Origin: Actibacterium naphthalenivorans
Lineage (GTDB): Bacteria > Pseudomonadota > Alphaproteobacteria > Rhodobacterales > Rhodobacteraceae
NCBI RefSeq assembly: GCF_014196965.1
Contig: NZ_JACIEQ010000004.1
Span: forward strand, 124,001-188,000
Direction of reading: 5' to 3'
DNA: 64,000 nt
The first letter of the stretch is position 1; each line of letters begins with the position of its first letter. The position numbers and the translations under genes are program-made. The notes beneath the pieces were generated by a model that was not told where the DNA came from, ran no database searches, and was given only the letters and a program-made list of their open reading frames with translations. Shown here piece by piece: positions 2,122 to 17,263 of the stretch.

Positions 2122-3603
2122 TCACTCCGCCGCGACGTTCAGCTTGTTCTCGACGTCGAGATCGTAGCTGGCCATGAAATCATCCACCCGGGTCTTGGCG
2201 TTGTCCCAATCGAAGAAGCGGAAGCTGTTGCCGCGGGTCACGAATTGCGCGCCGGAATAGAACATCTCGTATTGCAGGTGCCGCGAGCCGAACTCTGACC
2301 CGACCGCATCCCACGCCAGTTTCATCAGCTTCACCCGGTCGTGCGAACCGGCAACGGGCGAACGCTGGGTGCGGGCGATGATGTCGGCGGTTTCGTCCGC
2401 CGCGAAATCCAGATGCGATGACGGCACCATGATCATGCCGCCCCCCGACAACAGGCGGATCGCCTCGACGATCTCGGGATAGGTCGTCTGCGCCACCACC
2501 TGCGCGGTACACAGCAGGCTGCGGTCGGGGACGAAATACTGCCCGAACTGCTCGCCTTTCGCTTCCATCGCGATGACAAGCGCATCCATGTTGGCGACCT
2601 TGGCGGCGATAAGGCCGAGCTGTTCGCGCACCTGCGGATAGGTGATGATGTTGTTCAGATCGGCGATCTTGCGCGCCAGACCCAGCAGGAAATGCAGCTT
2701 CTGCGTCAGCCGGATCATGCTTTGATAGTTCTGCATCACATGGGCGCGGGTCTGGTGCCACTGGGCCTGCGCCATCTTCAGATCCCTGTAGACGAAGACC
2801 CGCTCCCACGGCACTTTGACATCGTCGAAGACCACCACCGCGTCATTCTCGTCGAAGCGCGCGGAGAGCGGGTAGTCGAAGGTCGAGGTGGCCGCGCCTT
2901 CGTAAGAGCGGCGCGACAAGAGTTTCAGCCCCCTGGTCGCCAGCGGCATGGCGACGGTAAAGGCGTAATCCTCGTCGCCCTGCTGCAGTGCCTGAAAGCC
3001 CGACACCATGATCTCGTTCGCCAGGATACCGGAGGTGGCCAGCATCTTGGCCCCCCGGATCGTCACGCCCTCGGCGTCTTCATCAACGATGGAGGCGACG
3101 AGGTTCTTGTCGGGCTGGCCGGAGGCGGATTTCGCCTTGTCTGCCTGCGGATTGACGATCACGTAGGACAGGAACATGTCATTGTCGCGGATGTAGTCGA
3201 AATAATCGGCCAGCGCGGCGGCGCGTTTGGGATCATTCGCGCCGAACACATCCAGCCCCATGCGGAAACCCACGAAGGTCGAGGCGACGTGATCGGGCGA
3301 CCGGCCCAGCATGCCGCAGGTCTGTGCCGACCAGCGTTCGATCGACACGCGCCGCGCGACAAGCTCGGCGTGGCTGGTGGGCATCATCCAGGATTTGTTC
3401 ACCCGCGCGCCGGTCTTTGGCGAGGCGAAGGTCATCGTCTCGATATTCTCGGGTGCGGCCTGGTAATCATAAAGGGCGCAGGCCGAGGCCACGGCGCCCC
3501 TGAAGGCGGGATCGGTGGTGACATTCTCGACCCGCTTGCCATCGATGAAGACGCAGCGGTCGTCCTGAAGGCTTGCAAGGTGGGCGGCGCCGTTCTTGGG
3601 CAT
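2122..3603 (-). CDS. HpaB-type flavin-dependent aromatic hydroxylase (4-hydroxyphenylacetate 3-monooxygenase family)
   Basis: The 493-residue product matches the 4-hydroxyphenylacetate 3-monooxygenase oxygenase family in length (about 480-520) and layout. An N-terminal helical domain is followed by the acyl-CoA-dehydrogenase-like core, with recognisable family segments: NPQADKAKSASGQPD, the GAKMLATSGILANEIMV strand, VPWERVFVYRD, and LLSGGGMIMVPSS near the C-terminus. These enzymes use FADH2 supplied by a separate reductase to hydroxylate phenols or, in some members, N-heteroaromatics. No hpaC-type reductase is adjacent; a flavin reductase occurs far away at 50443-50961. The start ATG at 3603 has GGAG eight bases upstream. 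No other genes of the classical homoprotocatechuate pathway are visible, so 4-hydroxyphenylacetate is probably not the substrate. Confidence 0.85.
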   Translation of the reverse strand: MPKNGAAHLASLQDDRCVFIDGKRVENVTTDPAFRGAVASACALYDYQAAPENIETMTFASPKTGARVNKSWMMPTSHAELVARRVSIERWSAQTCGMLGRSPDHVASTFVGFRMGLDVFGANDPKRAAALADYFDYIRDNDMFLSYVIVNPQADKAKSASGQPDKNLVASIVDEDAEGVTIRGAKMLATSGILANEIMVSGFQALQQGDEDYAFTVAMPLATRGLKLLSRRSYEGAATSTFDYPLSARFDENDAVVVFDDVKVPWERVFVYRDLKMAQAQWHQTRAHVMQNYQSMIRLTQKLHFLLGLARKIADLNNIITYPQVREQLGLIAAKVANMDALVIAMEAKGEQFGQYFVPDRSLLCTAQVVAQTTYPEIVEAIRLLSGGGMIMVPSSHLDFAADETADIIARTQRSPVAGSHDRVKLMKLAWDAVGSEFGSRHLQYEMFYSGAQFVTRGNSFRFFDWDNAKTRVDDFMASYDLDVENKLNVAAE

Positions 3604-3839: not shown

Positions 3840-4823
3840 TCAGGTGGCGCGCATATCGGCATCGAACATGTCCCCGGCCGTCAAATCTGTCGTCAGCAGG
3901 CCCTCGTTCCTCATGTAGCCTATCACGGTCTCCAGCGTCTCGCGATTGGCCGCGAAGCCGGCGGCCCAGTAATCCGCGCCGAGCCTGCGTTCGCTTTCCA
4001 GCAGGTGGTCGAACAGCCATGGCAGCATGACGTTGAGCGCGGCGCTGTTGAAAAGCCGTGCGCGCGCCTCGCCCTGCGCATCGCAGAGCGCGGCGTAAAG
4101 GCGCCGTGTCAGGCCCGGATTGGCCTCGGCGATCTCGCGTTTCAGGGCGAAGATATGCATCGGCGGGAAGATCCCGGTCTTTTGGTAATAGGCCGTCTCT
4201 GCCGCCACCGGATCATCAAACAGCCGCGCGACGGGGCAATCCGGATCATGGGGGGCATAGGTTGACGGGGCGCCGGCGGTGTAGAGCGCGTCGATCTTGC
4301 CGTCCGCCAGCATCTTCGCCAGCCCGCCGTCATCGCTGGCGTGGATGATCTCGAACCCGCCGGGATAGGCCTGCGGGTGCTCGTCGGCGGTGCGGCCGAA
4401 CTCCAGCCCGTTGGTCACATAGACCGGCGCCCGCATGTCGAGGCCATGGTGTTCGTCGAAAATTCCCCGCAGCCAGACGGCGGCGGCCATGTCCCAGATC
4501 GGTATGCCGACACGCTTGCCGGCCAGATCGGCGGGGGCCTTCAGCCCGGCGGCCTTGTTCACGAAGACGCAGGAAAAGCGGAAATGGCGCGAGGGAAAGA
4601 CCGGCAGCGCCAGATAGCGCCGCGCGCCTTCGAGATCACGCAGATAGGTTGCCAGCGGAAATTCGGCCGCGTCATAGGTATGGTGCGTGCATTGTTCGTT
4701 GAAAAGCTGCTGCACGCCGTGAACATGCCAATCGGCCTCGACCCCGTCGATCGTGACCGCCCCGTCGATCAGCGGCCGGATACGGTCGCAGTCAGAGGCC
4801 CCTATACTCAGTTTCAACGTCAT
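3840..4823 (-). CDS. 4,5-dihydroxyphthalate decarboxylase (Pht5)-like protein
   Basis: The 327-residue protein has the periplasmic-binding-protein-like fold shared with nitrate/sulfonate-binding proteins, but it has no signal peptide. It starts directly with a TLKLSIGASDCDRIRPLIDG segment, the hallmark of the Pht5 4,5-dihydroxyphthalate decarboxylase group. Further family features are the EFPLATYL, ALPVFPSRHFRFSCVFVN and DLAGKRVGIP segments. The length agrees with Pht5 (about 330). Co-location with an HpaB-type hydroxylase suggests decarboxylation of a hydroxylated aromatic acid (inference). The gene starts three bases after the stop of the DUF5591 gene. It could instead be a soluble ligand-binding protein, because the fold supports both roles. 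Confidence 0.68.
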   Translation of the reverse strand: MTLKLSIGASDCDRIRPLIDGAVTIDGVEADWHVHGVQQLFNEQCTHHTYDAAEFPLATYLRDLEGARRYLALPVFPSRHFRFSCVFVNKAAGLKAPADLAGKRVGIPIWDMAAAVWLRGIFDEHHGLDMRAPVYVTNGLEFGRTADEHPQAYPGGFEIIHASDDGGLAKMLADGKIDALYTAGAPSTYAPHDPDCPVARLFDDPVAAETAYYQKTGIFPPMHIFALKREIAEANPGLTRRLYAALCDAQGEARARLFNSAALNVMLPWLFDHLLESERRLGADYWAAGFAANRETLETVIGYMRNEGLLTTDLTAGDMFDADMRAT

Positions 4824-4826
4824 GGC

Positions 4827-5858
4827 TCAGCTTTCCAGTTGGTGAATGCGGGTGATCAGCACGTCGAGAAGTTCGGGCAGGGCGAGCGGTGTGGCATTGG
4901 CGCCGCCCCGCGACCAGGCCCCGCCGACACGATCGGGCGTGGTGCCGAGACGCCGCGCCAGCTGCTCTATCGCATCGGTGCAATCGGCGGTCTCGGGCAG
5001 GCAGGTGATGCGAAGCTCGGGCGGCAGGAGATCGTTGGCACCGACGAAGGCCAGCCGCTCTGTGCCGCAAAGCTTGGAGGCGGTGACGCCGTGTTCCTTG
5101 CGCGCCGCCTTTTCCAGCACGAAACTGCGGTGCGTCAGGCCGGGCGCCACCCATGAAATCCGCGCATCGTAAAGCCCGCCGATCCGTTCCATTACCTTGG
5201 CCAGCAAGGTGGCCATGATATTGTGCATCTCGACATAGGCGCGTTTCTCGTTCGCGCCCCAGATCCACTTGCCGGGCCCGACCTGTTGCGCCGTGCTGTC
5301 CGCCCGCCAGGGAGAGACCGCATTGCCGCGCTTTTCGAAAAGCCCCGGATCGTCGTAGGCATGGGAGGGCGAGGGCTTGCCCTCGTACCCGGTAACCGTT
5401 TCGTAGGGGACCAGCGCCATGGGCTCGGAAATCACCGCGCGGTGGATATACGTCCCCTTGCCGTCGCTCAGGATCGAGACGTCCATCAGCTCTTGCGGAT
5501 CGTCCGGCCCGAGGCGCGCGCAAAGCTCCTGCGCCAGCGGCTGGCGGGCGATGGGGCGGAAGCCTTCGTCGTAGAGCCGCCGGTTGATCGCCCGATGTTC
5601 CGAGGAAAAGGGATAGGGCTTTGTCGCCGTGCAGGGCAGCATCAGCAGCACCTTGCGCCCCTCTTGCGGCAGCTCCGGCATGTAGCGCTCGGTGATGAAG
5701 GCGATCCAGTCGGCGATCCGCGGATGGGTGAGGGATTCGAGGTTGTCCTGCGGGCTGTAGAGGCACAGCTCGGGGTCCAGCGCATAGGGGGGCTGGATCT
5801 TTTCCTGCGACTGGTGGAACCGGTCCGCCTTGTCTTCGACGATCACTTTGTTCGACAT
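4827..5858 (-). CDS. DUF5591 protein with archaeosine synthase (ArcS) core motif
   Basis: The 343-residue protein carries P75-C76-x3-K80-P-Y82-x2-S85-x2-H88, matching the PC-x3-KPY-x2-S-x2-H signature that defines the catalytic core of archaeal ArcS, and a later SEPMALVPYE segment that also resembles the DUF5591 domain. ArcS adds an amine (lysine) to the nitrile of preQ0 in tRNA. This protein lacks the tRNA-guanine-transglycosylase-like and PUA domains of full archaeal ArcS. The start ATG at 5858 has AAGG upstream and lies ten bases after the monooxygenase gene; the next gene follows after three bases. Its presence in a bacterial catabolic operon is unexpected. A role on a nitrile, amidine or deazapurine-like intermediate is speculation; the motif itself is directly visible. 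Confidence 0.7.
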   Translation of the reverse strand: MSNKVIVEDKADRFHQSQEKIQPPYALDPELCLYSPQDNLESLTHPRIADWIAFITERYMPELPQEGRKVLLMLPCTATKPYPFSSEHRAINRRLYDEGFRPIARQPLAQELCARLGPDDPQELMDVSILSDGKGTYIHRAVISEPMALVPYETVTGYEGKPSPSHAYDDPGLFEKRGNAVSPWRADSTAQQVGPGKWIWGANEKRAYVEMHNIMATLLAKVMERIGGLYDARISWVAPGLTHRSFVLEKAARKEHGVTASKLCGTERLAFVGANDLLPPELRITCLPETADCTDAIEQLARRLGTTPDRVGGAWSRGGANATPLALPELLDVLITRIHQLES

Positions 5859-5868
5859 CTGAAACCTT

Positions 5869-7323
5869 TCACACAGGTGTTTCGCTGGAATCGGCAAGGG
5901 CGGGATCAGGCATGGGCGCGGCCTCGGGGCGCAGTTCGGGTTCGTCATAGGCCATCAGTGCGGCCAGATGGGCGTCGGCATCTTCGGTGAAAAGCTGCCG
6001 CGTGATGCCGCGCACCACCCGCTCGGCCCCGAATTTCAGGGCCGAGATGCCGGCGGAGCAGCCCTGTGACACCATCGACGCGAAGGTGTAGCAGTAATGC
6101 CGGGCGAGCATGGCGTCGCTTTCTTCGGTCTTGCCCCGGAACTGGAAGGCATCGCCCAGATAGGGATAGCTGCCCAGCCCGTAATCCCCGGGGCCACGCG
6201 CGGGCCCGTGCCTGTCGGCCCAGGTGGCGATGTCGGCGGCCATCCGGCGCAGCTCTGGCCGGGCGGTGAAATCCACCACCATGCCGGTGCCCACGATCAG
6301 GAAATCCGCGTCGAAACCGCCCTTTGGCGTGGTGATGCGGATCTTGCCGCCGGCCTCATGCAGATCGGTGAAGGGGCTTTCATAATGGATGCGGAAGGCC
6401 CCGAACACGGCGCAGCGGTTGTAGGTGTCCTGCGGGGGCGGCTGGTTCATGCGGAAGATCCGCTGCATGAACGCCCATTTTCTCGCATCATCCAGATCCG
6501 GAAAATTGCGCAGAAAGCCGGTGAACTCCATCCAGCGATAGGGGTTCACCGGCGGCAGTTTCGGCCTGCGCACAAACATATCCACATGCGCGCCCGCCTC
6601 CAGCGCCCGGGCGGCGTTGTCGAAGGCCGAGGCCCCGCCACCCAGCACGGCGACACGCTTGCCCTTCAACGCGGCAAAGTCGATGTCATCGGCGGTATGC
6701 GCAAACAGCGGCTCGGGCAGGGCGGCGCGCGCGAAATCGGGCACCGCCCAGGCGCCGGTGGCCTCTATCCCCGGGGTCAGCACCACGGCGCGGGCGTAAT
6801 CCACCGTCTCGCGCCCCGCGGCATCGCGCTGGCGAACGGCGGTGATGCCGCCGGGAAGGGGCTCCAGATCCACCACTTCGACGCCGTGCCGGATCGGCGG
6901 GTTCACCGTGTCGCGCAGCCAGTCCAGATAATCCTGCCAGTCTTCGCGCGGGATCTTGCCAAGCTGCGCCCAGGCCAGATCCCCGAAACGGGCCCGGTAC
7001 CACGCCTCGGGCGTCAGCGCCGGTATCCCCATCTCGGGGCCGGAGACATGTTTCGGGGTTCGCAACGTCTTCATCCGCGCGAAGCTGCGCCAGGGCCCGG
7101 CCTTGCCCGGCAAGGCCCGTTCATAAAGGCGGATATTCGTCACGTTCTCACGCATCAAACCGAGCGCGATGGTCATGCCGGATTGCCCGGCGCCCACGAT
7201 CGCGACGTCCAGCACCTCGGTGCCCTCATGCTGGCGCGGAACGACCCATGGCCGCGCGGGATAGGACAGCATGTCAAGCTGGGCTTGCGCCTGCGCGGCC
7301 AACGCGTCGAGCGGATCGGTCAT
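5869..7323 (-). CDS. FAD/NAD(P)-binding monooxygenase-like oxidoreductase
   Basis: This 484-residue protein resembles flavin-containing and Baeyer-Villiger-type monooxygenases. The FAD-binding VAIVGAGQSGM motif is at residues 41-50, and a second dinucleotide-binding GKRVAVLGGGASAFD motif lies near residue 225, as expected for NADPH. It is the first gene of the minus-strand operon. Its start ATG at 7323 has AGGAG upstream, and the DUF5591 gene follows ten bases after its stop. The family oxidises soft nucleophiles or inserts oxygen next to a carbonyl; the exact BVMO fingerprint is not obvious to me, so the subclass is left open. No signal peptide or membrane segment is visible. Confidence 0.78.
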   Translation of the reverse strand: MTDPLDALAAQAQAQLDMLSYPARPWVVPRQHEGTEVLDVAIVGAGQSGMTIALGLMRENVTNIRLYERALPGKAGPWRSFARMKTLRTPKHVSGPEMGIPALTPEAWYRARFGDLAWAQLGKIPREDWQDYLDWLRDTVNPPIRHGVEVVDLEPLPGGITAVRQRDAAGRETVDYARAVVLTPGIEATGAWAVPDFARAALPEPLFAHTADDIDFAALKGKRVAVLGGGASAFDNAARALEAGAHVDMFVRRPKLPPVNPYRWMEFTGFLRNFPDLDDARKWAFMQRIFRMNQPPPQDTYNRCAVFGAFRIHYESPFTDLHEAGGKIRITTPKGGFDADFLIVGTGMVVDFTARPELRRMAADIATWADRHGPARGPGDYGLGSYPYLGDAFQFRGKTEESDAMLARHYCYTFASMVSQGCSAGISALKFGAERVVRGITRQLFTEDADAHLAALMAYDEPELRPEAAPMPDPALADSSETPV

Positions 7324-7631: not shown

Positions 7632-9071
7632 TCAGACGCGGCCCGCGAAGATGTCTTTCTTGACGATCGCATGGACGCCCCAGTTGCCGTCGACGACCTG
7701 CGTGATACCGAAATCGACCCCGACCGACATCAGCGAATGCGCCTCGTCCTCGGTCAGGCCCTTGGTGGTCATCAGGAATTTCCGCATCTTGCGGAACGCA
7801 TCGCGCATCGCATCGTCGATCGAGGATTTGCCATAGATGTCGGATTGCGCGGTCGGCCCCAGCGTGTCGAGGTAGTTGGGCACCGAAAAGCCGTGCACCA
7901 GCCACTCGGTCTGGGTTTCGAGCATCGGGTGATCCATCTCTTCCAGCGGCGTGCCGCCCAGATCGGCCTTCTTGTGCAGGATCAGCTGGAAGGTGCCGGT
8001 CAGCGAACATTCGATCGCCGTTCCGCAAAGCTCGCTGTCGCCCTGAGAGGCGTGGGGGTCGCCGACCGACAGCAGCGCGCCGTCGACCGCGACGGGGTAG
8101 TACATGGTCGCCCCCTTGCCGATGCGCCAGTTGTCGACATTGCCGCCGGTGTAGCTGGGCGGCACGGAATCGACGAAATCGGCCTCGGACGGCGCGACGC
8201 CAAGGGTGCCGAAATGCGGGCGGATCGGCACGCGGATGCCCTTGAGCACATCGTAGTTGCGGCTGGTCAGGCTGTGATCGACCGGCACGCCGGGATAGTC
8301 GATCGTGGGGTGGGTGATGCCGTAGGGATCGGTCTGGGGCACCCATTTGAAGTTATAGACCGCCTGGGCCCAGCTCTTGTCGCCGGTGGCATCAACCTCG
8401 TAGATCGTGATGACCTCGCGCTTGGCGTCATTCAGCATGTCGTTATAGTGAAACCCCCACCAGGCGGCGGCGTTCGAGCCAAAGCTCTTGCCGGTGAATT
8501 CGGGGTTGGCCGAGGGGCGCGGGGTGCAATCGAGGATCCGCACCTCCAGCACGTCGCCGGGTTCCGCGCCGCGCACATAGACCGGGCCGGTCATGATATG
8601 CACGCCCTGTCCTTCGCCCGAGCCGATCTTGTAGACCGCCGGATCGGTGGAACCGGCCCCGCGCCGTTCCACGCCCTTCTTGTCCTTGGTCCACAGATAC
8701 ACGCTCTCGGCGCCTTCATCGCCCTGGACCATCCGCTCCAGATCATCGGCGGCATGGTGGGTCAGGGTCTCGATGGTGACAAAATCGCCGCTGTCGATTT
8801 CGACGCGGGGGCTCAGGGTCTTGCTGAAATAGCCCCAATGCACGGTCTCGGCAGTGGCCGGAAGGTAGTGGAAAGACGGCGTGGCGGGGCCGTTCCTGGC
8901 GCTGGTCTGGGCCAGCGCCGGGGTCACGAGCGACAGGCCGCCCGCCGCGCCCGCGGCCGCGCCCAGCATGCCGCTGCGCAGGAAATTCCGGCGGCCCGGG
9001 TCGATCTCCTGCTTGAAGGCTTTGAAATGGGTCTCGAAATCGGGGCAGTTCACATCATCTCCACGGCACAT
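7632..9071 (-). CDS. Tat-exported acetamidase/formamidase family protein
   Basis: The 479-residue protein is a full-length acetamidase/formamidase (FmdA) family member. It is preceded by an N-terminal extension of about 25 residues and a twin-arginine signal (GRRNFLRSG, R27-R28, then an Ala-rich hydrophobic stretch ending ALAQ near residue 55). FmdA enzymes hydrolyse short amides such as formamide to the acid and ammonia. Conserved family segments include TVHWGYFSKTL, HIMTGPVYVRGAEPGD, PRPSANPEFTGKSFGSNAAAWWG, and VDGALLSVGDPHASQGD. Export to the periplasm is unusual because known formamidases are cytoplasmic. The ATG at 9071 has AGGAG nine bases upstream. It is divergent from the AraC-FmdA fusion, whose C-terminal half is a clear paralog. 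Confidence 0.85.
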   Translation of the reverse strand: MCRGDDVNCPDFETHFKAFKQEIDPGRRNFLRSGMLGAAAGAAGGLSLVTPALAQTSARNGPATPSFHYLPATAETVHWGYFSKTLSPRVEIDSGDFVTIETLTHHAADDLERMVQGDEGAESVYLWTKDKKGVERRGAGSTDPAVYKIGSGEGQGVHIMTGPVYVRGAEPGDVLEVRILDCTPRPSANPEFTGKSFGSNAAAWWGFHYNDMLNDAKREVITIYEVDATGDKSWAQAVYNFKWVPQTDPYGITHPTIDYPGVPVDHSLTSRNYDVLKGIRVPIRPHFGTLGVAPSEADFVDSVPPSYTGGNVDNWRIGKGATMYYPVAVDGALLSVGDPHASQGDSELCGTAIECSLTGTFQLILHKKADLGGTPLEEMDHPMLETQTEWLVHGFSVPNYLDTLGPTAQSDIYGKSSIDDAMRDAFRKMRKFLMTTKGLTEDEAHSLMSVGVDFGITQVVDGNWGVHAIVKKDIFAGRV

Positions 9072-9408
9072 GTTATCTCTCTCCTGCTGGTGGTCACTTT
9101 GGTGTGGTTCCTAGCAATGGACGCAGTCCGGCGAATCCGGCAACCGTTGCGCCACACCGGCAGAATCGCCTGCACACGCGCCTGAAAAGGCGTGAATATG
9201 ACGTAAAATCAGAAGGGTATGGGACCTGTCGGAGGGGGAGGGGCGGGCGCGTGCCATGCCGGGCTGCGCGCCCGGGCAACAGATTGTGCATATGGTGAAA
9301 AGCGCGTGGCGACACTTCCGCGCAAAAAAGCGGCATAGTGGCGGAAAGTCAAAAACGCAAGACGATTACAGGCCCGGCATCACGCGGCCGCGCGTTAGGC
9401 TTGGAGCA
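9072..9408. promoter_or_regulatory. Divergent control region of the two formamidase genes
   Basis: This 337-base region separates the exported formamidase (minus) from the AraC-formamidase fusion (plus). It contains an imperfect inverted repeat, ACTTCCGC at 9314-9321 and GCGGAAAGT at 9341-9349, separated by 19 bases, which is a plausible operator for the adjacent AraC-type regulator. A small hairpin (CGCCT at 9179-9183, AGGCG at 9188-9192) lies nearer the formamidase. No small gene is convincing here. Confidence 0.4.
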
Positions 9409-11775
9409 ATGGATATGACATCTGACCCCGATCACCTGGATCTTTCGACCTTTCCCGAAGCGGCACGGGCCGATGTCTGGCGCCAGCGCCTGGCGGCGTT
9501 CGGGCTGGCGGCGGCGGAGGATGCCGGGGCCGGGTTGAGCGGGGCGCTCAGCGTTCTGCAATCGGTCAGCGGCTTGCGGATCGGCCGGATCGTGGCCCCG
9601 GCGCAGGATCTGCGCCCCGCCAGGGTTCAGCCGCGGCCGGCCCCGCTTCTGTTTGTCCTGACGCTGCGCAGCCGCGGCGTTCTTTCGGCACAGGGCCACC
9701 TGCAATATTTCGCGCAGAACGATCTGGCGGTGCTCGATCAGGGCAATGACTGGCAGTTGCGCTGGTCGGGGGATGCGAAGGCGATCCTGCTGGAACTGCC
9801 CCGCTCGGCCGTGGCGACGCGCCTTGGCCGCCAGAAGCCCCGGCTGCCGCTTGTGCTGGGCGGGTCCGTGGCCGCCGACATGGCGCGCTCGATGCTGGGG
9901 GTTCTGGGGGCGCAGTTCGATGCCCTGACGCAAGAGGATCTGGCCGCGAGCGAGGGCGCGCTGCTGGATCTGCTGTGCAGCGCCCTGATCGGAGAGGCCG
10001 ATTTCGACGGGGGCGCCATGACGCCGGTGCAGGTCGCCCATTTCCGGCGCGTGGCGGCGGCGATCGACACACGGTTGCAGCGGCCCGATCTGACACTGGC
10101 CGACATCGCGGGGCAGGTGGGCCTTTCGGCGCGCTATGTGCAGCGGTTGTTCGAGCTTCATGGCGACAGCTTCTCGCGCTATGTCCGCCAGAAGCGGCTG
10201 GAGCGCAGCCGGGCCGATCTTCTGAACATCAGCCAGAATGGCGTGAGCATCGCCCAGATCGCCCATCGCTGGGGCTTTGCCAGCGCGTCGCATTTCAGCC
10301 GCTCGTTCCGCGAGGCCTTCGGCATATCGGCCAGCGCCCTGCGCGAGGACAATCTGGAGGCCCGCCTGCCATATGCGTTTCGCGGCCATCCGGGCGGTGC
10401 GGTGAAGCATCCCGCGAAAGGCCAGCCTCCGCCGCCCCATGGCGAGCCCTGCGATCCGGCCTCGGACCTGCCCGAACCGGCGCCGAACCCCGACAACATG
10501 GCTGATTTCCTGTTGCCCGCCCGTGCGGATACGGTGCATTGGGGCTATATCAGCCGCGCCATTCCGCCCGTTCTTTACGTGCCGTCCGGCGCGGTGGTCA
10601 GGGTTGAAACCCTGACCCAGCACGGCGGTGACGATTACGCCCGTTTTGTCGAGGGCGATCCGGGCGCGCAAAGCGTGTTTCACTGGACCCGCGAGGCCAA
10701 GCCGGTGGATCGGCGCGGCGCCGGGCCGATGGATGCCTCGATCTTCGGGCGCGGCGCGGGCGAGGGCTTTGGCGTTCACATCTGCACCGGGCCGATCCAT
10801 GTCAACGGCGCCGAGCCGGGCGATGTGCTCGAGGTCGAAATCCTCGAGATCGCCCCGCGCCCCTCGGCCAATCCGCTGTACCGTGGCAAGGCGTTCGGCT
10901 CGAACGCCTCGGCCTGGTGGGGATATCAGTACAACGACCCGCTCAAGGGCACCAAGCGGCACGAGACGATCACCATCTTCGAGGTCGATCTCGAGCGGCC
11001 GGACGAGGCGCGGGCGCTGTATCAATATGTCTGGACACCGCAGACCGACCCGTTCGGCGTGGTGCATGAGACGATGGATTACCCGGGGATCCCGGTCGAT
11101 CATCGCCTGATCGAACGGCGGCCTTCCCTCGACAATGTCACCATCCCCGCGCGCCCGCATTTCGGTTTCATCGGCGTCGCCCCGCGCGAGGCGGAGATCG
11201 TCGACAGCATCCCGCCCGGCTATTTCGGCGGCAATGTCGACAACTGGCGCGCCGGGCCGGGATCGCGCGTCTATCTGCCCGTCGCGGTCGAGGGGGCGCT
11301 GCTGTCGATCGGCGACGGCCATTTCAGCCAGGGCGACGGCGAGATCAACGGCACAGGGCTCGAGATGTCGCTCACCGGCACGGTCCGCCTGCGCCTGCAC
11401 AAGGCGGGGGCACAGACCGTTCCGCAGATCCGGGGCCTCTCGACGCCGCTGATCGAGACGCCCGAGGAATGGGTGATCCAGAGCTTCAGTTTCGAAAACC
11501 ACCTGCGCGATCTCGGCCGCAGCGCGCAGACCGATGTCTACACGCGCGCGTCACTTGACCGCGCGTTGCGAAACGCTTTCCGTCAGGCCCGCCGCTTTCT
11601 GATCGACACTTATGGTTTGACCGAAGACGATGCCCACGCGCTGTTGTCCGTCGCGGCGGATTTCAGCGTTACCCAGGTTGCGGATGGGAATTTCGGCGTC
11701 CATGTCAGTATCCGGCGCTCCTTGTTCGGCGACAAGCACAGCGGCAATGCCGTGGGTGGATCATCGGGTTCCTGA
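9409..11775 (+). CDS. AraC-family regulator fused to an acetamidase/formamidase domain
   Basis: A single uninterrupted frame of 788 codons joins two normally separate proteins. Residues 1-315 form an AraC regulator: an N-terminal AraC-binding-like domain, then a double helix-turn-helix from about 219 to 313 with LTLADIAGQVGLSARYVQRLF and the second helix pair VSIAQIAHRWGFASASHFSRSFREAFG. A Pro-rich linker of about 45 residues follows. Residues 364-788 are a complete FmdA-family domain resembling the adjacent exported formamidase, with HICTGPIHVNGAEPGD and FGSNASAWWG. GGAG at 9403-9406 fits an ATG at 9415 better than the one at 9409, so the start may be two codons later. It is probably a regulator of the divergent amidase genes that uses the enzyme domain to sense or remove the inducer (inference). 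Confidence 0.85.
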   Translation: MDMTSDPDHLDLSTFPEAARADVWRQRLAAFGLAAAEDAGAGLSGALSVLQSVSGLRIGRIVAPAQDLRPARVQPRPAPLLFVLTLRSRGVLSAQGHLQYFAQNDLAVLDQGNDWQLRWSGDAKAILLELPRSAVATRLGRQKPRLPLVLGGSVAADMARSMLGVLGAQFDALTQEDLAASEGALLDLLCSALIGEADFDGGAMTPVQVAHFRRVAAAIDTRLQRPDLTLADIAGQVGLSARYVQRLFELHGDSFSRYVRQKRLERSRADLLNISQNGVSIAQIAHRWGFASASHFSRSFREAFGISASALREDNLEARLPYAFRGHPGGAVKHPAKGQPPPPHGEPCDPASDLPEPAPNPDNMADFLLPARADTVHWGYISRAIPPVLYVPSGAVVRVETLTQHGGDDYARFVEGDPGAQSVFHWTREAKPVDRRGAGPMDASIFGRGAGEGFGVHICTGPIHVNGAEPGDVLEVEILEIAPRPSANPLYRGKAFGSNASAWWGYQYNDPLKGTKRHETITIFEVDLERPDEARALYQYVWTPQTDPFGVVHETMDYPGIPVDHRLIERRPSLDNVTIPARPHFGFIGVAPREAEIVDSIPPGYFGGNVDNWRAGPGSRVYLPVAVEGALLSIGDGHFSQGDGEINGTGLEMSLTGTVRLRLHKAGAQTVPQIRGLSTPLIETPEEWVIQSFSFENHLRDLGRSAQTDVYTRASLDRALRNAFRQARRFLIDTYGLTEDDAHALLSVAADFSVTQVADGNFGVHVSIRRSLFGDKHSGNAVGGSSGS

Positions 11776-11905: not shown

Positions 11906-12487
11906 ATGCCTGCCGATCTTTCCGCCCATTTCCCCTTGCGCAAATCCCGCGTCCACGAAGCTTGTGGGCCGGGGGCGCCCGGTTTTGCCGGGGCGGTCTG
12001 CGCGCAAGGCAGCGGCCCTGTGCTCTGGGTTGTCGAGGCCTGGCGGCATGAGCAGGTGAATCCGGTTGCCTTCGGCGCCTTTGCCGATCCTGCGCGCTTG
12101 CTGGTGGCGCGGGCCGGTGACCAGCGCGAAGCGCTGGCCGTGGCCGAAGTGGCGCTGGGCGATGGCGCCGTGCCGTTGGTGATCGTCGAGCTTGGCGCGC
12201 CCCTCAGCCTGAAGGCGGGCCGGCGGCTGCAACTGGCGGCCAAGTCCGGCGGCACCACGGGGCTGTGCCTGATCCCCGAGGGGATGGGCAGCAATGCCGC
12301 CGAAACCCGCTGGCACTGCACCCCGGTTTTCGACGCATCTGACTCGACTCGGATGCGATGGGAGCTTATCAAGAACAAATCAGGAACACTTGGGGTCTGG
12401 GATGTTCGATGGGATGCAGCGGCGCGTCGTCTCGATGTGGTTCCCCCGGCTGGGAAGCGACCGGGTTCTCAGGGCGCGCCCGGTTGA
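11906..12487 (+). CDS. imuA: ImuA, RecA-like mutasome protein
   Basis: The 193-residue protein has the ImuA pattern: an N-terminal FPLRKSRVHEACGPG segment, a central RecA/SulA-like strand VLWVVEAW, LSLKAGRRLQLAAKSGGTTGLCL, and the C-terminal MRWELIKNKSGTLGVWDVRWD block. ImuA works with ImuB and DnaE2 in damage-induced translesion synthesis. Its last 86 bases are read in a different frame from the first codons of imuB. The C-terminal block is homologous to other ImuA C-termini, so the overlap appears real rather than a mis-set stop. I looked for the alphaproteobacterial LexA site (GTTC-N7-GTTC) in the 130 bases upstream and did not find one. Confidence 0.82.
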   Translation: MPADLSAHFPLRKSRVHEACGPGAPGFAGAVCAQGSGPVLWVVEAWRHEQVNPVAFGAFADPARLLVARAGDQREALAVAEVALGDGAVPLVIVELGAPLSLKAGRRLQLAAKSGGTTGLCLIPEGMGSNAAETRWHCTPVFDASDSTRMRWELIKNKSGTLGVWDVRWDAAARRLDVVPPAGKRPGSQGAPG

Positions 12488-13883
12488 AGGGCCTTTCGCC
12501 CTGACGCTGAAGCAGAACAATGCCGAGCGGCTTTCTTGCCTGAACGCGCTGGCCGAAGGGCAGGGCCTGCACCGCGGTATGGCCTATGCCGATGCGCGCG
12601 CCTTTTGCCCGGATCTGATCACCAGGCCCGCCGACCCGGCACAGGAGGCGCGGTTTCTGCACGCCCTGCGCCGCTGGGCCACGCGCTATTGCCCCTGGGT
12701 GGGGCTGGAGGGCGCGGATGGTCTGGTGCTTGATATCACCGGCTCGGCGCATCTGTGGGGCGGCGAGGGCGAAATGCTGGCCGATATGCGCGCGCGGATG
12801 GCGCGGACGGGGGTGTCGGTGCGGCTGGGGCTGGCCGATACGCGCGGTGCGGCATGGGCGCTGGCCCGCCATGGCGAGGGCGTGGCGCCCCCGGGTGCGG
12901 CGCTGGCGGCGCTCGGGCCGCTGCCGGTGGCGGCGCTGCGGCTGGAACAGGCGACATCGGTGGCCCTGCAGCGGCTGGGGTTGCGGACAGTGGCTGATCT
13001 GGCCGCCGCACCCCGCGCGCCCCTGGCGCGGCGCTTTGGGCCGGGGCTGTTGCTGCGCCTGGATCAGGCATCGGGCGCGCAGGCCGAAGAGATCAGCCCG
13101 CTGGCCGACCCTCCTCATTTCGGTGTGCGGATGGCCCTGCCGGACCCGATCGGCCTGGCCGATGACGTGATGGCCGGAACCGAGCGCCTGCTGTCCCGGC
13201 TTTGCGCCCGGCTGAAAGCCCACGAGATGGGCGCGCGGGTGTTGTGCCTGACCCTGCGCCGCGTCGATCAGGGCAGCCAGCAGCTCGAGCTGCGCCTTGC
13301 CAGCGCCATGCGGGATCCGCACCGCATCTTGCCCCTGTTCCGGCGCGGCGTGGAAGGGATCGAGGCCGGTTTCGGCATTGACCAGCTGCGGCTTGAAGCG
13401 GTCCAGATCGAGCCCTTGCCGATGCAACAGCTCGGCCATGGCGGCCCGCCGGGGCAGGACGGGCTGGATGATCTCGTGACCCGTATCGGCAACCGTATCG
13501 GGCTGGAGAATGTGCTGCGCTTTCTGCCCGCCGACAGCCATATCCCCGAGCGCGCCTTTCTGATCGCCCCCGCCGCTTATTCCGCGCCGGAAAACGGCCC
13601 GTGGGTGGCTCCGCGCCCGCGCCCCCTGCGCCTGTTCCCGCCCGAGCCCATCGCGGGTTCGGGCGCCCGCCCGCCAAAGCATTTCCGCTGGCGGCGCATG
13701 GCGTTTGCGGCCGCGCGGGCAACGGGGCCGGAACGCATCGCCCCCGAATGGTGGCTGGAGGATGACAACTGGCGCAGTGGCGTGCGCGACTACTGGCAGG
13801 TGGAAACCCTGCAGGGGCGGCGGCTCTGGCTTTATTATACGCCGCAAAACCCCGGCTGGTTCGTGCAGGGGGAATTCGCATGA
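12402..13883 (+). CDS. imuB: ImuB, Y-family polymerase-like mutasome protein
   Basis: The 493-residue protein starts at MFDGMQRRVVSMWFPRL and carries the Y-family polymerase fold: palm/fingers (YADARAFCPDL, LVLDITGSAHLWGGE, VRLGLADTRGAAWALAR), an HhH thumb (LGLRTVADLAAAPRAPLARRFG) and a little-finger-like C-terminal region. ImuB is catalytically inactive in characterised species and acts as the hub linking ImuA, DnaE2 and the beta clamp. The start overlaps imuA by 86 bases, and the stop overlaps the dnaE2 start by four (ATGA), indicating tight coupling. An alternative start is the ATG at 12414. The length agrees with ImuB proteins. Confidence 0.88.
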   Translation: MFDGMQRRVVSMWFPRLGSDRVLRARPVEGPFALTLKQNNAERLSCLNALAEGQGLHRGMAYADARAFCPDLITRPADPAQEARFLHALRRWATRYCPWVGLEGADGLVLDITGSAHLWGGEGEMLADMRARMARTGVSVRLGLADTRGAAWALARHGEGVAPPGAALAALGPLPVAALRLEQATSVALQRLGLRTVADLAAAPRAPLARRFGPGLLLRLDQASGAQAEEISPLADPPHFGVRMALPDPIGLADDVMAGTERLLSRLCARLKAHEMGARVLCLTLRRVDQGSQQLELRLASAMRDPHRILPLFRRGVEGIEAGFGIDQLRLEAVQIEPLPMQQLGHGGPPGQDGLDDLVTRIGNRIGLENVLRFLPADSHIPERAFLIAPAAYSAPENGPWVAPRPRPLRLFPPEPIAGSGARPPKHFRWRRMAFAAARATGPERIAPEWWLEDDNWRSGVRDYWQVETLQGRRLWLYYTPQNPGWFVQGEFA

Positions 13884-16800
13884 TCGAAGTGAACCGTGAT
13901 TTGCGGCCCGTAAAGGCCTTCCGCCGTGATCTGCTGCAGAGCGGGGCCGGCGCACCGGGCTATGCCGAGCTGTGCGTCACCTCGAATTTCACCTTTCTCA
14001 CGGGGGCCTCTCATCCCGAGGAGCTGATCGCCCGGGCCGCCGAACTGGGGCTCGAGGCCATCGCCATCACCGACCGCAACTCGCTGGCGGGCGTGGTGCG
14101 GGCGTTTTCGGCGCTGAAGGAACTGCGGCGCGAGGCCGAAGAGGCGATCCGCATCCGCTCTCAATGCCGCACCGACAGTTGCTCGCGGCAGGAGCTGGGC
14201 AATGCGCAAGGCATCTCGCGCCCTTCGGCACCCAAACTGCCCCGGCTGATCATTGGCTGCCGCCTGGTCCTGCGTGACAGCCCCGTGGACTGGATCGCCC
14301 TGCCACGGGACCGGGCGGCCTATCAGCGGCTGACACGCCTGCTGTCTCTGGGCAAGCGGCGGGCCGGGAAGGGCGAATGCCACCTCGACATGGCGGACAT
14401 GCTGCGATCCTGCACCGGCATGATCCTGATCGCCCTGCCGCGCGCGGGCGTGGAGGTGGCCGAGGCGCCTATCCGGCAAGTCCGCAAAAGTTTCCCCGGC
14501 CATGTCTTCGTAGGGGCCGCGCCGCGGTATGACGGGTCCGATCAGGCCTGGCTGACTGCCTGCGCCCGCCTTGCCCAGAAGACATCCGCGCCGATGGTCG
14601 CGGTGGGGGATGTTCTGATGCACCGGGCCAGCCGCAAGCAACTGGCCGATGTGCTGACCTGCATGCGCGCGCATATCACCATCGATCAGATCGGCACCCG
14701 CGCCCTGCCCAATGCCGAACGCCGCCTGAAAGGGGGCGCAGATATGGCGCGCCTGTTCCGCGATCATCCCGCCGCCCTGCGCCGAACCCTGGAAATCGCC
14801 GCCCGGTGCGCCTTCTGCCTGAGTGAGCTGAGCTATGAATATCCCGATGAAGCCTCTCAGGGCGAAGCCCCGCAGGAGCGGCTGGAGCGCCTGGCCCGCG
14901 AAGGGCTCGGGCGCCGCTATCCGGGTGGCGCGTCCGGGCGGGTTCTCGGCCTGATGACGAAAGAGTTGAAGCTGGTCGCGGAGCTGGGCTTTTCCGCCTA
15001 TTTCCTGACGGTCCACGACATTGTCCAATATGCCCGCTCGCAGGGCATCCTGTGCCAGGGGCGCGGCTCGGCGGCCAATTCGATCCTGTGCTATCTGCTC
15101 GGCATCACCGATGTCAGCCCCGACCAGATCGCCATGGTGTTTGAGCGCTTCGTCTCGAAATACCGGGGCGAGCCGCCGGATATCGATGTGGATTTCGAGC
15201 ATGAGCGACGCGAAGAGGTGATTCAGTGGATCTATGAAAAATACGGCCGCCACCGCGCCGGGCTATGCGCGACCGTGATCCATTTCCGCAGCCGTGCCGC
15301 GATCCGCGAGGTGGGCAAGGTGATGGGGCTGTCCCAGGATGTGACAGCCGGTCTTTCGGGGCAGATCTGGGGCCATTCCAACAGTGGCGCCGATGCCGGG
15401 CGCATTCGCGAACTGGGGCTCGACCCGGCCGACCGCCGGCTTGCCCAGACCATCCGCCTGATCGGCGAGATCATCGGCTTTCCCCGGCATCTGTCGCAGC
15501 ATGTGGGCGGTTTCGTCATCACCAGGGGGCGGCTGGACGAATTGTGCCCGATCGAGAACGCGGCGATGGAGGCGCGCACGATCATCGAATGGGACAAGGA
15601 CGATATCGACACGCTGGGCATTCTGAAGGTCGATGTGCTGGGCCTTGGCATGCTGACCTGTATCCGCAAGGCTTTCGGGCTGATGCAGCGGCACGAGGAC
15701 AGGGCGTTGACGATCGCCACCGTCCCGCAAGAGGACAGGCAGACCTACGACATGTTGCAAAGGGCCGATGCGATCGGGGTGTTTCAGGTCGAAAGCCGGG
15801 CGCAGATGAACTTCCTGCCCCGGATGCGGCCCGCGACCTTCTATGATCTGGTGATCGAGGTCGCCATCGTCCGCCCCGGCCCGATCCAGGGGGGGATGGT
15901 TCAGCCCTATATCCGGCGGCGGCAGGGGCTGGAGGTGCCGGAGCCGTTCGGCCCGGCGCTGGAGGAGGTCACGAAACGCACCCTGGGTGTGCCGCTGTTT
16001 CAGGAGCAGGCGATGCAGATCGCCGTGGTGGGCGCGGGTTTTACCGCCGAAGAGGCCGACCACCTGCGCCGCTCGCTGGCGTCGTTCCGGCGGATGGGCA
16101 CGATCGGGGCCTTCCGGGACAAATTCATCAACGGGATGCTGGGCAACGGCTATGGCCTTGATGTGGCGGAACGCTGTTTCGGGCAGATCGAGGGGTTCGC
16201 CGACTACGGCTTTCCCGAAAGCCATGCCGCCGCCTTCGCCATGCTCGCCTATGTCTCGGCCTGGCTGAAATGCCATCACCCGGCAATCTTTGCCTGCGCG
16301 CTTCTCAATTCGCAGCCGATGGGGTTCTACGCCCCGGCCCAGATCGTGCGCGATGCCCGTGAACATCAGGTCGAGGTGCGGCCGGTCTGCGTCAACAGCA
16401 GCGTGTGGGACAATACGCTGGAGCGCCGTATGGATGGCACGCTGGCCCTGCGGCTCGGGTTTCGGCAGATCAAGGGCTTCAGGAAAGAGGATGCGGACCT
16501 GATCGTCCGGCATCGCGGCAACGGTTATCGCCAGCCGGAATCGGTCTGGCTGCGCGCCGGTGTCGCGCCGCCGGTGCTGGAGCGGCTGGCCGAGGCGGAT
16601 GCGTTCGCCGACATGGGATTGACCCGGCGCGATGCGATCTGGCAGGTCCGGGCCGTTCGCGGACAGGCCCCTTTGCCGCTGTTCGACGATCCGATCGACG
16701 GGGAGAGCATCCAAGAACCGCAGGTGGACCTGCCCGCCATGCACCTGGGAGAGGAGGTGGTCGAGGATTACGTCTCGATGCGCCTGTCGCTCCGGGCGCA

Positions 16801-17263
16801 TCCGCTGGAATTGCTGCGCCCCACCATGCCGGGCCTGACACCACATGACAGGCTGATCACCGCACCGCTCAAACGCACCAGCGTCTGTGGCCTTGTCATC
16901 ACCCGCCAACGCCCCGGCACCGCCTCGGGCGTGATCTTCCTGACCCTGGAGGATGAAACCGGCGTTTCGAATGTGGTGGTCTGGCCCAAAGTCTATGAGC
17001 GCTTCCGCCGTATCGTCATGGGCGGGCGGCTGCTGCGGGTTACAGGGCATCTGCAGCGCGAGGGGAGTGTCGTGCATCTGATCGCACAACAAATCGAGGA
17101 TATGTCACACCGGCTGGCCGAACTGGGCCACCCGCTTGATGACGCTATCGGCATCACGCAGCCCCGGGCCGACGATGCGCCGCGCAAGCCCCACCAGCCC
17201 GCCCGCGCCAGGCATCCACGCGAACAGGCCAAGCGGCTGTTTCCCAGCCGGGACTTTCACTGA
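13880..17263 (+). CDS. dnaE2: DnaE2, error-prone DNA polymerase III alpha subunit
   Basis: The 1127-residue protein is a full-length DnaE2. It has an N-terminal PHP domain ([36 protein letters not shown]), the polymerase III palm with [19 protein letters not shown] and [28 protein letters not shown], the fingers, an HhH region and a C-terminal OB fold ([18 protein letters not shown]). DnaE2 performs error-prone bypass of DNA lesions and mediates induced mutagenesis. It is translationally coupled to imuB through the ATGA overlap. The only local insertion I notice is at residues 91-115, a polar segment between PHP strands. Confidence 0.93.
   Translation: [1127 protein letters not shown]

Follow-up and report, generated by a model that had tools for sequence, protein, structure and literature searches.

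What would a protein built on the core domain of an archaeal tRNA-modifying enzyme do in an alphaproteobacterium, encoded within what looks like a catabolic operon? The question is raised by an open reading frame at positions 4827-5858 (minus strand) of the window, by which we mean the whole 64,000-nucleotide stretch that was analysed. It codes for a stand-alone protein of 343 amino acids that is matched by the Pfam model of the DUF5591 (ArcS-core) family, PF17884. To our knowledge, DUF5591 is known only from archaeal tRNA modification. The gene is the second in a tightly packed minus-strand run, and this arrangement is conserved in other genomes. ArcS itself transfers lysine to preQ0 in tRNA (PMC11298593). 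An alternative in-frame start lies 30 codons upstream of the ATG at 5858, and the relatives of the protein start at or near the 5858 ATG.

Residues 75-88, whose codons occupy positions 5595-5636 (minus strand), read PCTATKPYPFSSEH and match exactly the pattern P-C-x3-K-P-Y-x2-S-x2-H, which we take to be the ArcS signature. A preliminary description of this DNA had reported the motif, and it withstands scrutiny, with one match to the back-translated pattern in the window and none in 100 shuffles. Among 29 aligned proteins, Pro75, Cys76, Lys80, Pro81, Tyr82, Ser85 and His88 are invariant, and so are the segments LCLYSPQDN, SEP-x3-VPY, YDDPGLFE, W-x-WG-x2-E and PGLTHRSF. The second family-like segment named in the same description, SEPMALVPYE, does occur (residues 144-153), but the claim that its spacing from the motif is right does not hold: its serine comes 56 residues after the motif histidine, versus 20 in archaeal DUF5591 domains. 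The longer spacing in the bacterial family is due to an insert. To judge from its sequence, the protein is probably an active enzyme and not a decayed one.

PF17884 recognized the protein with 31 bits (cut-off 26), and it matched all 29 aligned family members at E≤0.01. Scores were seen for five members; four of them were 31, 32.6, 33.1 and 27.5 bits, and the fifth (L029), at 25.2 bits, fell under the cut-off. The HMMER alignment covers only DUF5591 positions 2-44 of 150 (43 positions), and the remainder of the domain was therefore tested by other comparisons. With hhalign, residues 53-247 were placed on columns 19-136 of three archaeal DUF5591 domains (probability 94.3%; E 9.8e-8 for a single comparison), the archaeal side being three plasmid-borne TGT-DUF5591 proteins from two haloarchaeal plasmids and no chromosomal ArcS. 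In this alignment the bacterial family carries inserts of about 36 and about 25 residues, and shares with the archaeal domains an S-x5-V-P segment and a later T-x-R segment. The AlphaFold2 model of the protein has a mean pLDDT of 90.4 and a pTM of 0.91. The top Foldseek match was 2q07 (AF0587 of Archaeoglobus, which bears DUF5591), but it was weak (E 0.3). A structural aligner superposed the model on 2q07 over 138 residues at 2.9 Å with 25% identity and a Z of 11.1, which exceeds the Z of 7-8 typical of models without a clear match; the next matches, DNA glycosylase and cutinase chains, reached Z 6.0 or less. One outcome that had been named beforehand as refuting the idea, a profile comparison without a significant match beyond the short motif, was not what we found. 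The assignment to DUF5591 is upheld by HMM, profile-profile and structural comparison, and common descent of the protein with archaeal DUF5591 is well supported.

Judged over the full length, the protein does not qualify as an ArcS: the ArcS models NF040592 and NF053620 gave it 31.9 and 29.4 bits, whereas their full-length cut-offs are as high as 440 and 600. No Pfam family other than DUF5591 reached E≤0.1, and neither a TGT nor a PUA domain was detected in the 343 residues, in agreement with the earlier view of a core without the transglycosylase-like and PUA parts. Compared with ArcS (PF17884; NF040592, NF053620; 2q07), the bacterial family has in common the predicted fold, PCxxxKPYxxSxxH, S-x5-V-P and T-x-R, and it differs by the absence of the TGT-like and PUA domains, by the two inserts, by the extra invariant blocks (the four listed above besides SEP-x3-VPY), and by its bacterial hosts and catabolic neighbours. 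The haloarchaeal plasmid proteins (L036, L037) carry a DUF5591 domain with the motif and, as in the bacterial family, no PUA domain by Pfam; they are fused to a TGT domain, whereas the bacterial proteins are unfused.

The genes packed around 4827-5858 all lie on the same minus strand. At 5869-7323 an FAD/NAD(P)-dependent monooxygenase-like protein (FADmo) is encoded, matched by Pfam Pyr_redox_3 and Lys_Orn_oxgnase, and at 3840-4823 a protein like 4,5-dihydroxyphthalate decarboxylase (Pht5), whose Rhizobium orthologue matches 9jp7 (E 1.7e-47). These are accompanied by an HpaB-type flavin-dependent hydroxylase of 493 amino acids (2122-3603; HpaB_N and HpaB in Pfam), whose start at 3603 was set by comparison with relatives, the frame itself reaching 4020; by an amidase-signature amidase (929-2125; PF01425, and NF006169 with 421 bits, cut-off 391); and by a PuuE (allantoinase)-type hydrolase of 298 amino acids (36-932; TIGR03212 with 280.5 bits, below the cut-off of 424.6), whose start at 932 was likewise placed from its relatives. 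Positions 1-105 hold the 5′ end of AHa, an amidohydrolase of the cytosine/guanine deaminase type, in a frame that spans the window and the stretch L003; AHa extends beyond the window, and its true start is uncertain. Outside the window, the same contig (L003, L056) holds relatives of an Amdase/EutA-like gene, an aldo-keto reductase, an OYE-type oxidoreductase, an NMT1-type ABC transporter, an aldehyde dehydrogenase, a class III aminotransferase, an AraC regulator, a CobW-type GTPase and a second polysaccharide-deacetylase-type hydrolase, together with an asparaginase relative (37% identity) and an 8-oxoguanine-deaminase-type amidohydrolase (AHb; 620 bits, cut-off 532). The monooxygenase, Pht5-like decarboxylase, HpaB and amidase that had been named as neighbours are therefore as described. 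The amide hydrolases had been counted in the same coupled set, and this stands for the amidase at 929-2125 and fails for the FmdA genes: for the one at 7632-9071, a comparison with 64 other stretches gave no match at E≤1e-10, and FmdA was ruled out as part of the conserved system.

A pattern scan of genome contigs yielded 28 further bacterial loci, and one more was found on a Rhizobium plasmid. The 28 came from a pattern built on a two-sequence alignment, a scan with the single protein having found none. They belong mostly to Alphaproteobacteria (Pseudooceanicola, Maritimibacter, Kaistia, Bradyrhizobium, Bosea, Mesorhizobium, Parvibaculum, Acetobacteraceae and others), with three in Actinomycetota. 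Soil and marine bacteria are among the hosts. The gene is rare and patchy among bacteria: of 147 drawn genomes related to the window's, only the window's own held it; in the class, PF17884 was found in 3 of 385 genomes, all three with members of the bacterial stand-alone family; and in the phylum survey it was found in 1 of 398. The 25 locus genomes searched carry one copy each. In L031 the copy is split in two by a frameshift, and this gene was therefore omitted from the protein alignments and still counted in the neighbourhood tables. No relative was found in the phage records or viral contigs searched.

Neighbouring genes were then counted at 30 loci (the window, the Rhizobium plasmid and the 28), with a further member, G386, treated separately. 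A relative was defined by at least 40% identity over at least half of the reference protein, and the genes counted are open reading frames with homology support, not curated genes. The flanks were unequal, 6-32 kb in a first census and 6-73 kb in a second. They were extended for the window and 16 genomes (L004-L012, L014, L016, L018, L019, L025, L028 and L030), and not for L013, L015, L017, L020-L024, L026, L027, L031 and the plasmid; the extra stretch of L029 merely repeated L029. Relatives of the Pht5-like gene were found at 22 of the 30 loci, and those of HpaB, the amidase and the FAD monooxygenase at 20 each; the PuuE-type hydrolase and AHa followed with 18 each and AHb, the second deaminase-type amidohydrolase, with 16. 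Less frequent were the Amdase/EutA-like gene (13), the aminotransferase and the second deacetylase-type hydrolase (12 each), aldehyde dehydrogenase and a flavin reductase (11 each), and a histone-deacetylase-like gene, the OYE, the aldo-keto reductase and the NMT1-type binding protein (9 each). All relatives of Pht5 (21), HpaB (19), amidase (20), PuuE (13) and the FAD monooxygenase (18) seen in the first census share the strand of the DUF5591 gene. The counts are not independent of one another: most of the reference proteins were taken from the Rhizobium plasmid, of which L010 is nearly a duplicate (96-99% identity in most partners).

Some loci deviate. In L018, 36 kb contained no cluster gene, and only a cytidine-deaminase-like gene lies upstream, which has no relative near the closest ArcS-like gene, that of G386. 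In the genomes of G386 and L018, the Pht5 relatives were only distant (30-31%), and no AHb was found at E≤1e-60; in the L015 genome a Pht5 relative of 67% identity is located at one end of a separate contig. The neighbours of the gene in L025, L028, L029 and L031 are of another kind, with DUF1989, class II aldolase and amidohydrolases unlike those above, and in L027 (Ilumatobacter) an AtzD-type amidohydrolase, of the kind that opens cyanuric acid and barbiturate rings, lies close downstream. These loci show that there is no universal partner gene. A neighbourhood analysis, proposed in the preliminary description as the way to tell a catabolic role (HpaB, Pht5, amidase) from one tied to tgt, nevertheless comes out on the catabolic side, and the catabolic placement of the bacterial DUF5591 gene is well supported.

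What compound would such clusters handle? In 5 of the 30 clusters (three of Kaistia, one of Bosea and one of Mesorhizobium) we observed relatives of nucleoside hydrolase (PF01156) together with ECF S components, and in four of these five an EcfT-like gene. The five lie among the 17 genomes with extended flanks, the other 12 being without these genes, and there is no nucleoside hydrolase in the 56 kb of the window's own cluster. The S components scored 27-30 bits with ECF_trnsprt (cut-off 30.7) and 125-127 bits with the CD3073 model (cut-off 180). The equation of a CD3073-type S component with QrtT was considered and rejected, the scores being below the cut-off and no paper being found that equates the two. 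A Bmp/PnrA-type ABC binding protein adjoins three Bradyrhizobium clusters. AHb, whose closest PDB entry is 7ww2, passes the NCBI cut-off for 8-oxoguanine deaminase (532) not only in the window's genome but also in Rhizobium (618 bits), and plasmid proteins with the annotation allantoinase PuuE share 46-54% identity with the PuuE-type hydrolase from the Rhizobium plasmid. A search of the window and of L002-L031 with Rfam revealed no riboswitch at the gathering threshold, and only two tRNAs.

The surroundings of the gene in G386 are the most explicit. On the same strand and before the DUF5591 gene lie a PuuE-type gene (44% identical to the Rhizobium one) and an allantoicase gene (E 6e-63). Also before it on this strand are a nucleobase permease, nearest to uric acid-xanthine permease (E 1e-29) and then to uracil permease (E 5e-28), and a hydrolase-like frame and a dihydroorotase-like amidohydrolase, the last two named by eye from their sequences. 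Further out there is a PuuD-type gene (66-68% identity to annotated PuuD). On the other side of the DUF5591 gene there is a Mo-hydroxylase, and one that is 83% identical flanks the gene in L015. The amidase and the FAD monooxygenase have relatives (44% and 41%) at distances of about 11 kb and about 23 kb from the G386 gene. The permease, allantoicase and PuuD of G386 had no match among the other stretches (69 stretches searched). Together, the nucleoside hydrolases, the nucleobase-type transporters and the urate/allantoin genes of G386 suggest a purine-like substrate, a reading that is moderately supported. It is more specific than the small-molecule nitrile or amidine idea put forward earlier.

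We consider it probable, with some reserve, that a stand-alone ArcS-core enzyme has been recruited into the bacterial uptake and breakdown of a small purine-like base or nucleoside. Action on a free small molecule, the purine-like nature of this substrate, the order of the steps and all of the chemistry are what we infer from the domain, the predicted fold, the motif and the gene association. The compound would be imported by an NMT1-type, Bmp-type or ECF transporter, varying with the host, and the nucleoside hydrolase, where present, would release the base. The ArcS-like enzyme might then, by means of Cys76, Lys80, Tyr82, Ser85 and His88, add a nucleophile (an amine or water) to an electrophilic carbon of a side group, which by analogy with ArcS would be nitrile-like. 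Cys76 may attack this carbon, with the amine or water then releasing the product; the idea of a thioimide intermediate comes from QueF. It is the homology to ArcS that suggests nitrile or amidine chemistry. The amide and acid products could feed the amidase and the Pht5-like decarboxylase, and these two, together with the ring deaminases, HpaB/flavin reductase, the FAD monooxygenase and the PuuE-type hydrolase, would remove the side group and open the rings. The ArcS of T. kodakarensis is described as also accepting preQ0 nucleoside derivatives, so a version of the reaction on a free base is chemically plausible; its Km for the 5′-phosphorylated preQ0 nucleoside is 433 µM, and the authors think the reaction rare in cells (PMC11298593).

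A narrower form of this proposal, in which the clusters are a breakdown pathway for 7-deazaguanines (preQ0, preQ1, queuosine and its base), is put forward tentatively, and we think it rather doubtful as a precise answer. Here the ArcS-like enzyme would convert the 7-cyano group of free preQ0 or of its nucleoside; aminotransferase and aldehyde dehydrogenase could turn a 7-aminomethyl group into a carboxylate, to be removed by the Pht5-like enzyme; a deaminase would take off the 2-amino group; and HpaB/FAD monooxygenase, with the PuuE-type hydrolase, might open the rings.

The clusters may instead degrade another N-heterocycle (a pyrimidine, pyridine, triazine or natural nitrile), with the DUF5591 enzyme acting on that compound. 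HpaB, Pht5-like and Amdase/EutA-like proteins also occur in other aromatic pathways, and all three families are present here; the ring-opening enzyme next to the Ilumatobacter gene fits as well, and so do the class III aminotransferase, aldehyde dehydrogenase and histone-deacetylase-like genes of some loci. We judge it unlikely, although worth keeping in mind, as a purine-type ring fits better with the nucleoside hydrolases, the transporter parts (Bmp and ECF), the enzyme of the 8-oxoguanine deaminase type and the urate/allantoin genes around the gene in G386, and the known relative ArcS acts on a deazapurine.

A different kind of alternative concerns the mechanism: the fold could be that of a UDG-like nucleosidase or binding protein, which cleaves or senses a nucleoside with no ArcS-type addition. 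This is compatible with either substrate, so the likelihoods of the readings need not add up to certainty. It derives from the structural comparison, in which thymine and uracil DNA glycosylases come up behind 2q07; their Z of about 4 to 6 is, however, common for unrelated models with this tool, and cutinases score equally. Since in addition the residues of the ArcS motif are invariant, and five clusters have nucleoside hydrolases that belong to another family, we regard a UDG-like role as improbable.

Could the cluster import and reshape queuosine precursors (queuine, preQ0 or preQ1) for the cell's own tRNA? Searches for TGT, QueC and PF02592 covered 21 genomes (all but L013, L015, L017, L021, L023, L024, L027, L031 and the plasmid). 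TGT was found in 20 of them, as a single match in 19 and split in two in one, and was absent from one. In none of the 20 did it lie within 100 kb of the DUF5591 gene on one contig, the distance in the window's genome being 122 kb; most assemblies are drafts, so that a TGT on a separate contig could in principle be close. The gene is thus not linked to TGT, in line with the preliminary description. Full-length QueC was present in 6 of the 21 genomes and absent from 15, the window's among them, and PF02592, the queuosine-precursor transporter family, in 6 of the 21 including the window's, again never within 100 kb of the DUF5591 gene on one contig. In favour of salvage, the window's genome has TGT and no full-length QueC, and C. 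difficile salvages queuosine with a nucleoside hydrolase and an ECF transporter (queK-qrtT-queL; PMC11477304). The bacterial clusters resemble that system in five cases by these two components, and differ in that their S components are nearest to the CD3073 family, below its cut-off, and in that TGT is not near. Missing QueC says little because in the window's family it is also lacking from 71 of 80 genomes (full-length QueC in 9 of 80), and this absence was rejected as support for salvage. Moreover, six cluster genomes do have QueC, and the ring-opening-type enzymes would have no obvious use in salvage. With PF02592 not near the gene, these enzymes favour breakdown over salvage, which we hold to be quite improbable.

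That the protein still modifies tRNA (or DNA), and sits by chance inside a catabolic operon, is very improbable: its nearest characterised relative, ArcS, acts on tRNA (PMC11298593) and haloarchaeal plasmids carry TGT-DUF5591 fusions, but the protein has no TGT or PUA domain, the genomic TGT was never near, the same-strand catabolic neighbourhood recurs and the distribution is patchy (3 of 385 genomes in the class).

The reading that we prefer, breakdown of a purine-like compound, can be compared with oxidative purine breakdown. The likeness consists in AHb, which passes the 8-oxoguanine deaminase cut-off, in the similarity of the PuuE-type hydrolase to annotated PuuE, and in the one member, G386, that lies among PuuD-, PuuE- and allantoicase-type genes. 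The clusters differ by the addition of HpaB, the Pht5-like decarboxylase, the FAD monooxygenase, the amidase and the DUF5591 enzyme, and we know of no purine route that includes any of these. The term "DUF5591" did not occur in the literature searched, mostly open-licence papers, and neither such a cluster nor a breakdown route for 7-deazaguanines was found there, which is weak evidence of absence. In the Q pathway figure of a 2024 paper possible degradation is drawn as dashed arrows only (PMC11130926); the 7-deazaguanine reading would therefore fill a gap, and, if true, it would mean that a tRNA enzyme core has moved into small-molecule catabolism. The bacterial DUF5591 family supplies a list of recurring partner genes, and if the broader proposal is true, the core of an RNA-modification enzyme would have been recruited for metabolism in bacteria with its active-site motif kept.

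In the window, two acetamidase/formamidase genes lie near the cluster of catabolic-type genes that recurs beside the ArcS-like (stand-alone DUF5591) gene. A single open frame of 839 aa (9256-11775, + strand) combines two parts recognized by domain matches: an AraC-type regulator, with its matches falling inside residues 104-364, and an acetamidase/formamidase domain (residues 507-802). The second acetamidase/formamidase, also recognized by a domain match (7632-9071, - strand), carries a Tat-signal match below the cut-off. At 12294-17263 (+ strand), two long frames overlap each other and resemble ImuB and DnaE2, the putative components of an SOS mutagenesis cassette.

In the Ilumatobacter locus (L027), a tetrahydrofolate dehydrogenase/cyclohydrolase gene lies directly upstream of the ArcS-like gene, and close downstream of it is an AtzD-type cyanuric acid amidohydrolase gene (12492-13814; 528.7 bits, cut-off 360). 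In a further bacterial locus, L018, a cytidine/deoxycytidylate-deaminase-like gene (9190-9783) is found directly upstream of the ArcS-like gene; this gene aside, no cluster partner was detected in the 36 kb examined.

Two differing TGT-DUF5591 fusions are encoded on one Haladaptatus plasmid (L036:2432-4453 and 5167-7131), and another on the haloarchaeal plasmid L037 (2453-4456). No PUA domain was detected in these fusions, which possibly serve DNA modification. The archaeal DUF5591 domain weakly matches proteins (E 0.004-0.008) of Synechococcus phages (PP438428.1, OM868081.1) and Sulfolobus virus STSV2.

In two stretches from cluster-bearing genomes, an ECF S component related to the CD3073 family, labeled 'putative' at NCBI, adjoins a nucleoside hydrolase (L051:7403-8008 and L050:10557-11180). 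The cluster may give a clue to the substrate of the CD3073-related ECF transporter.
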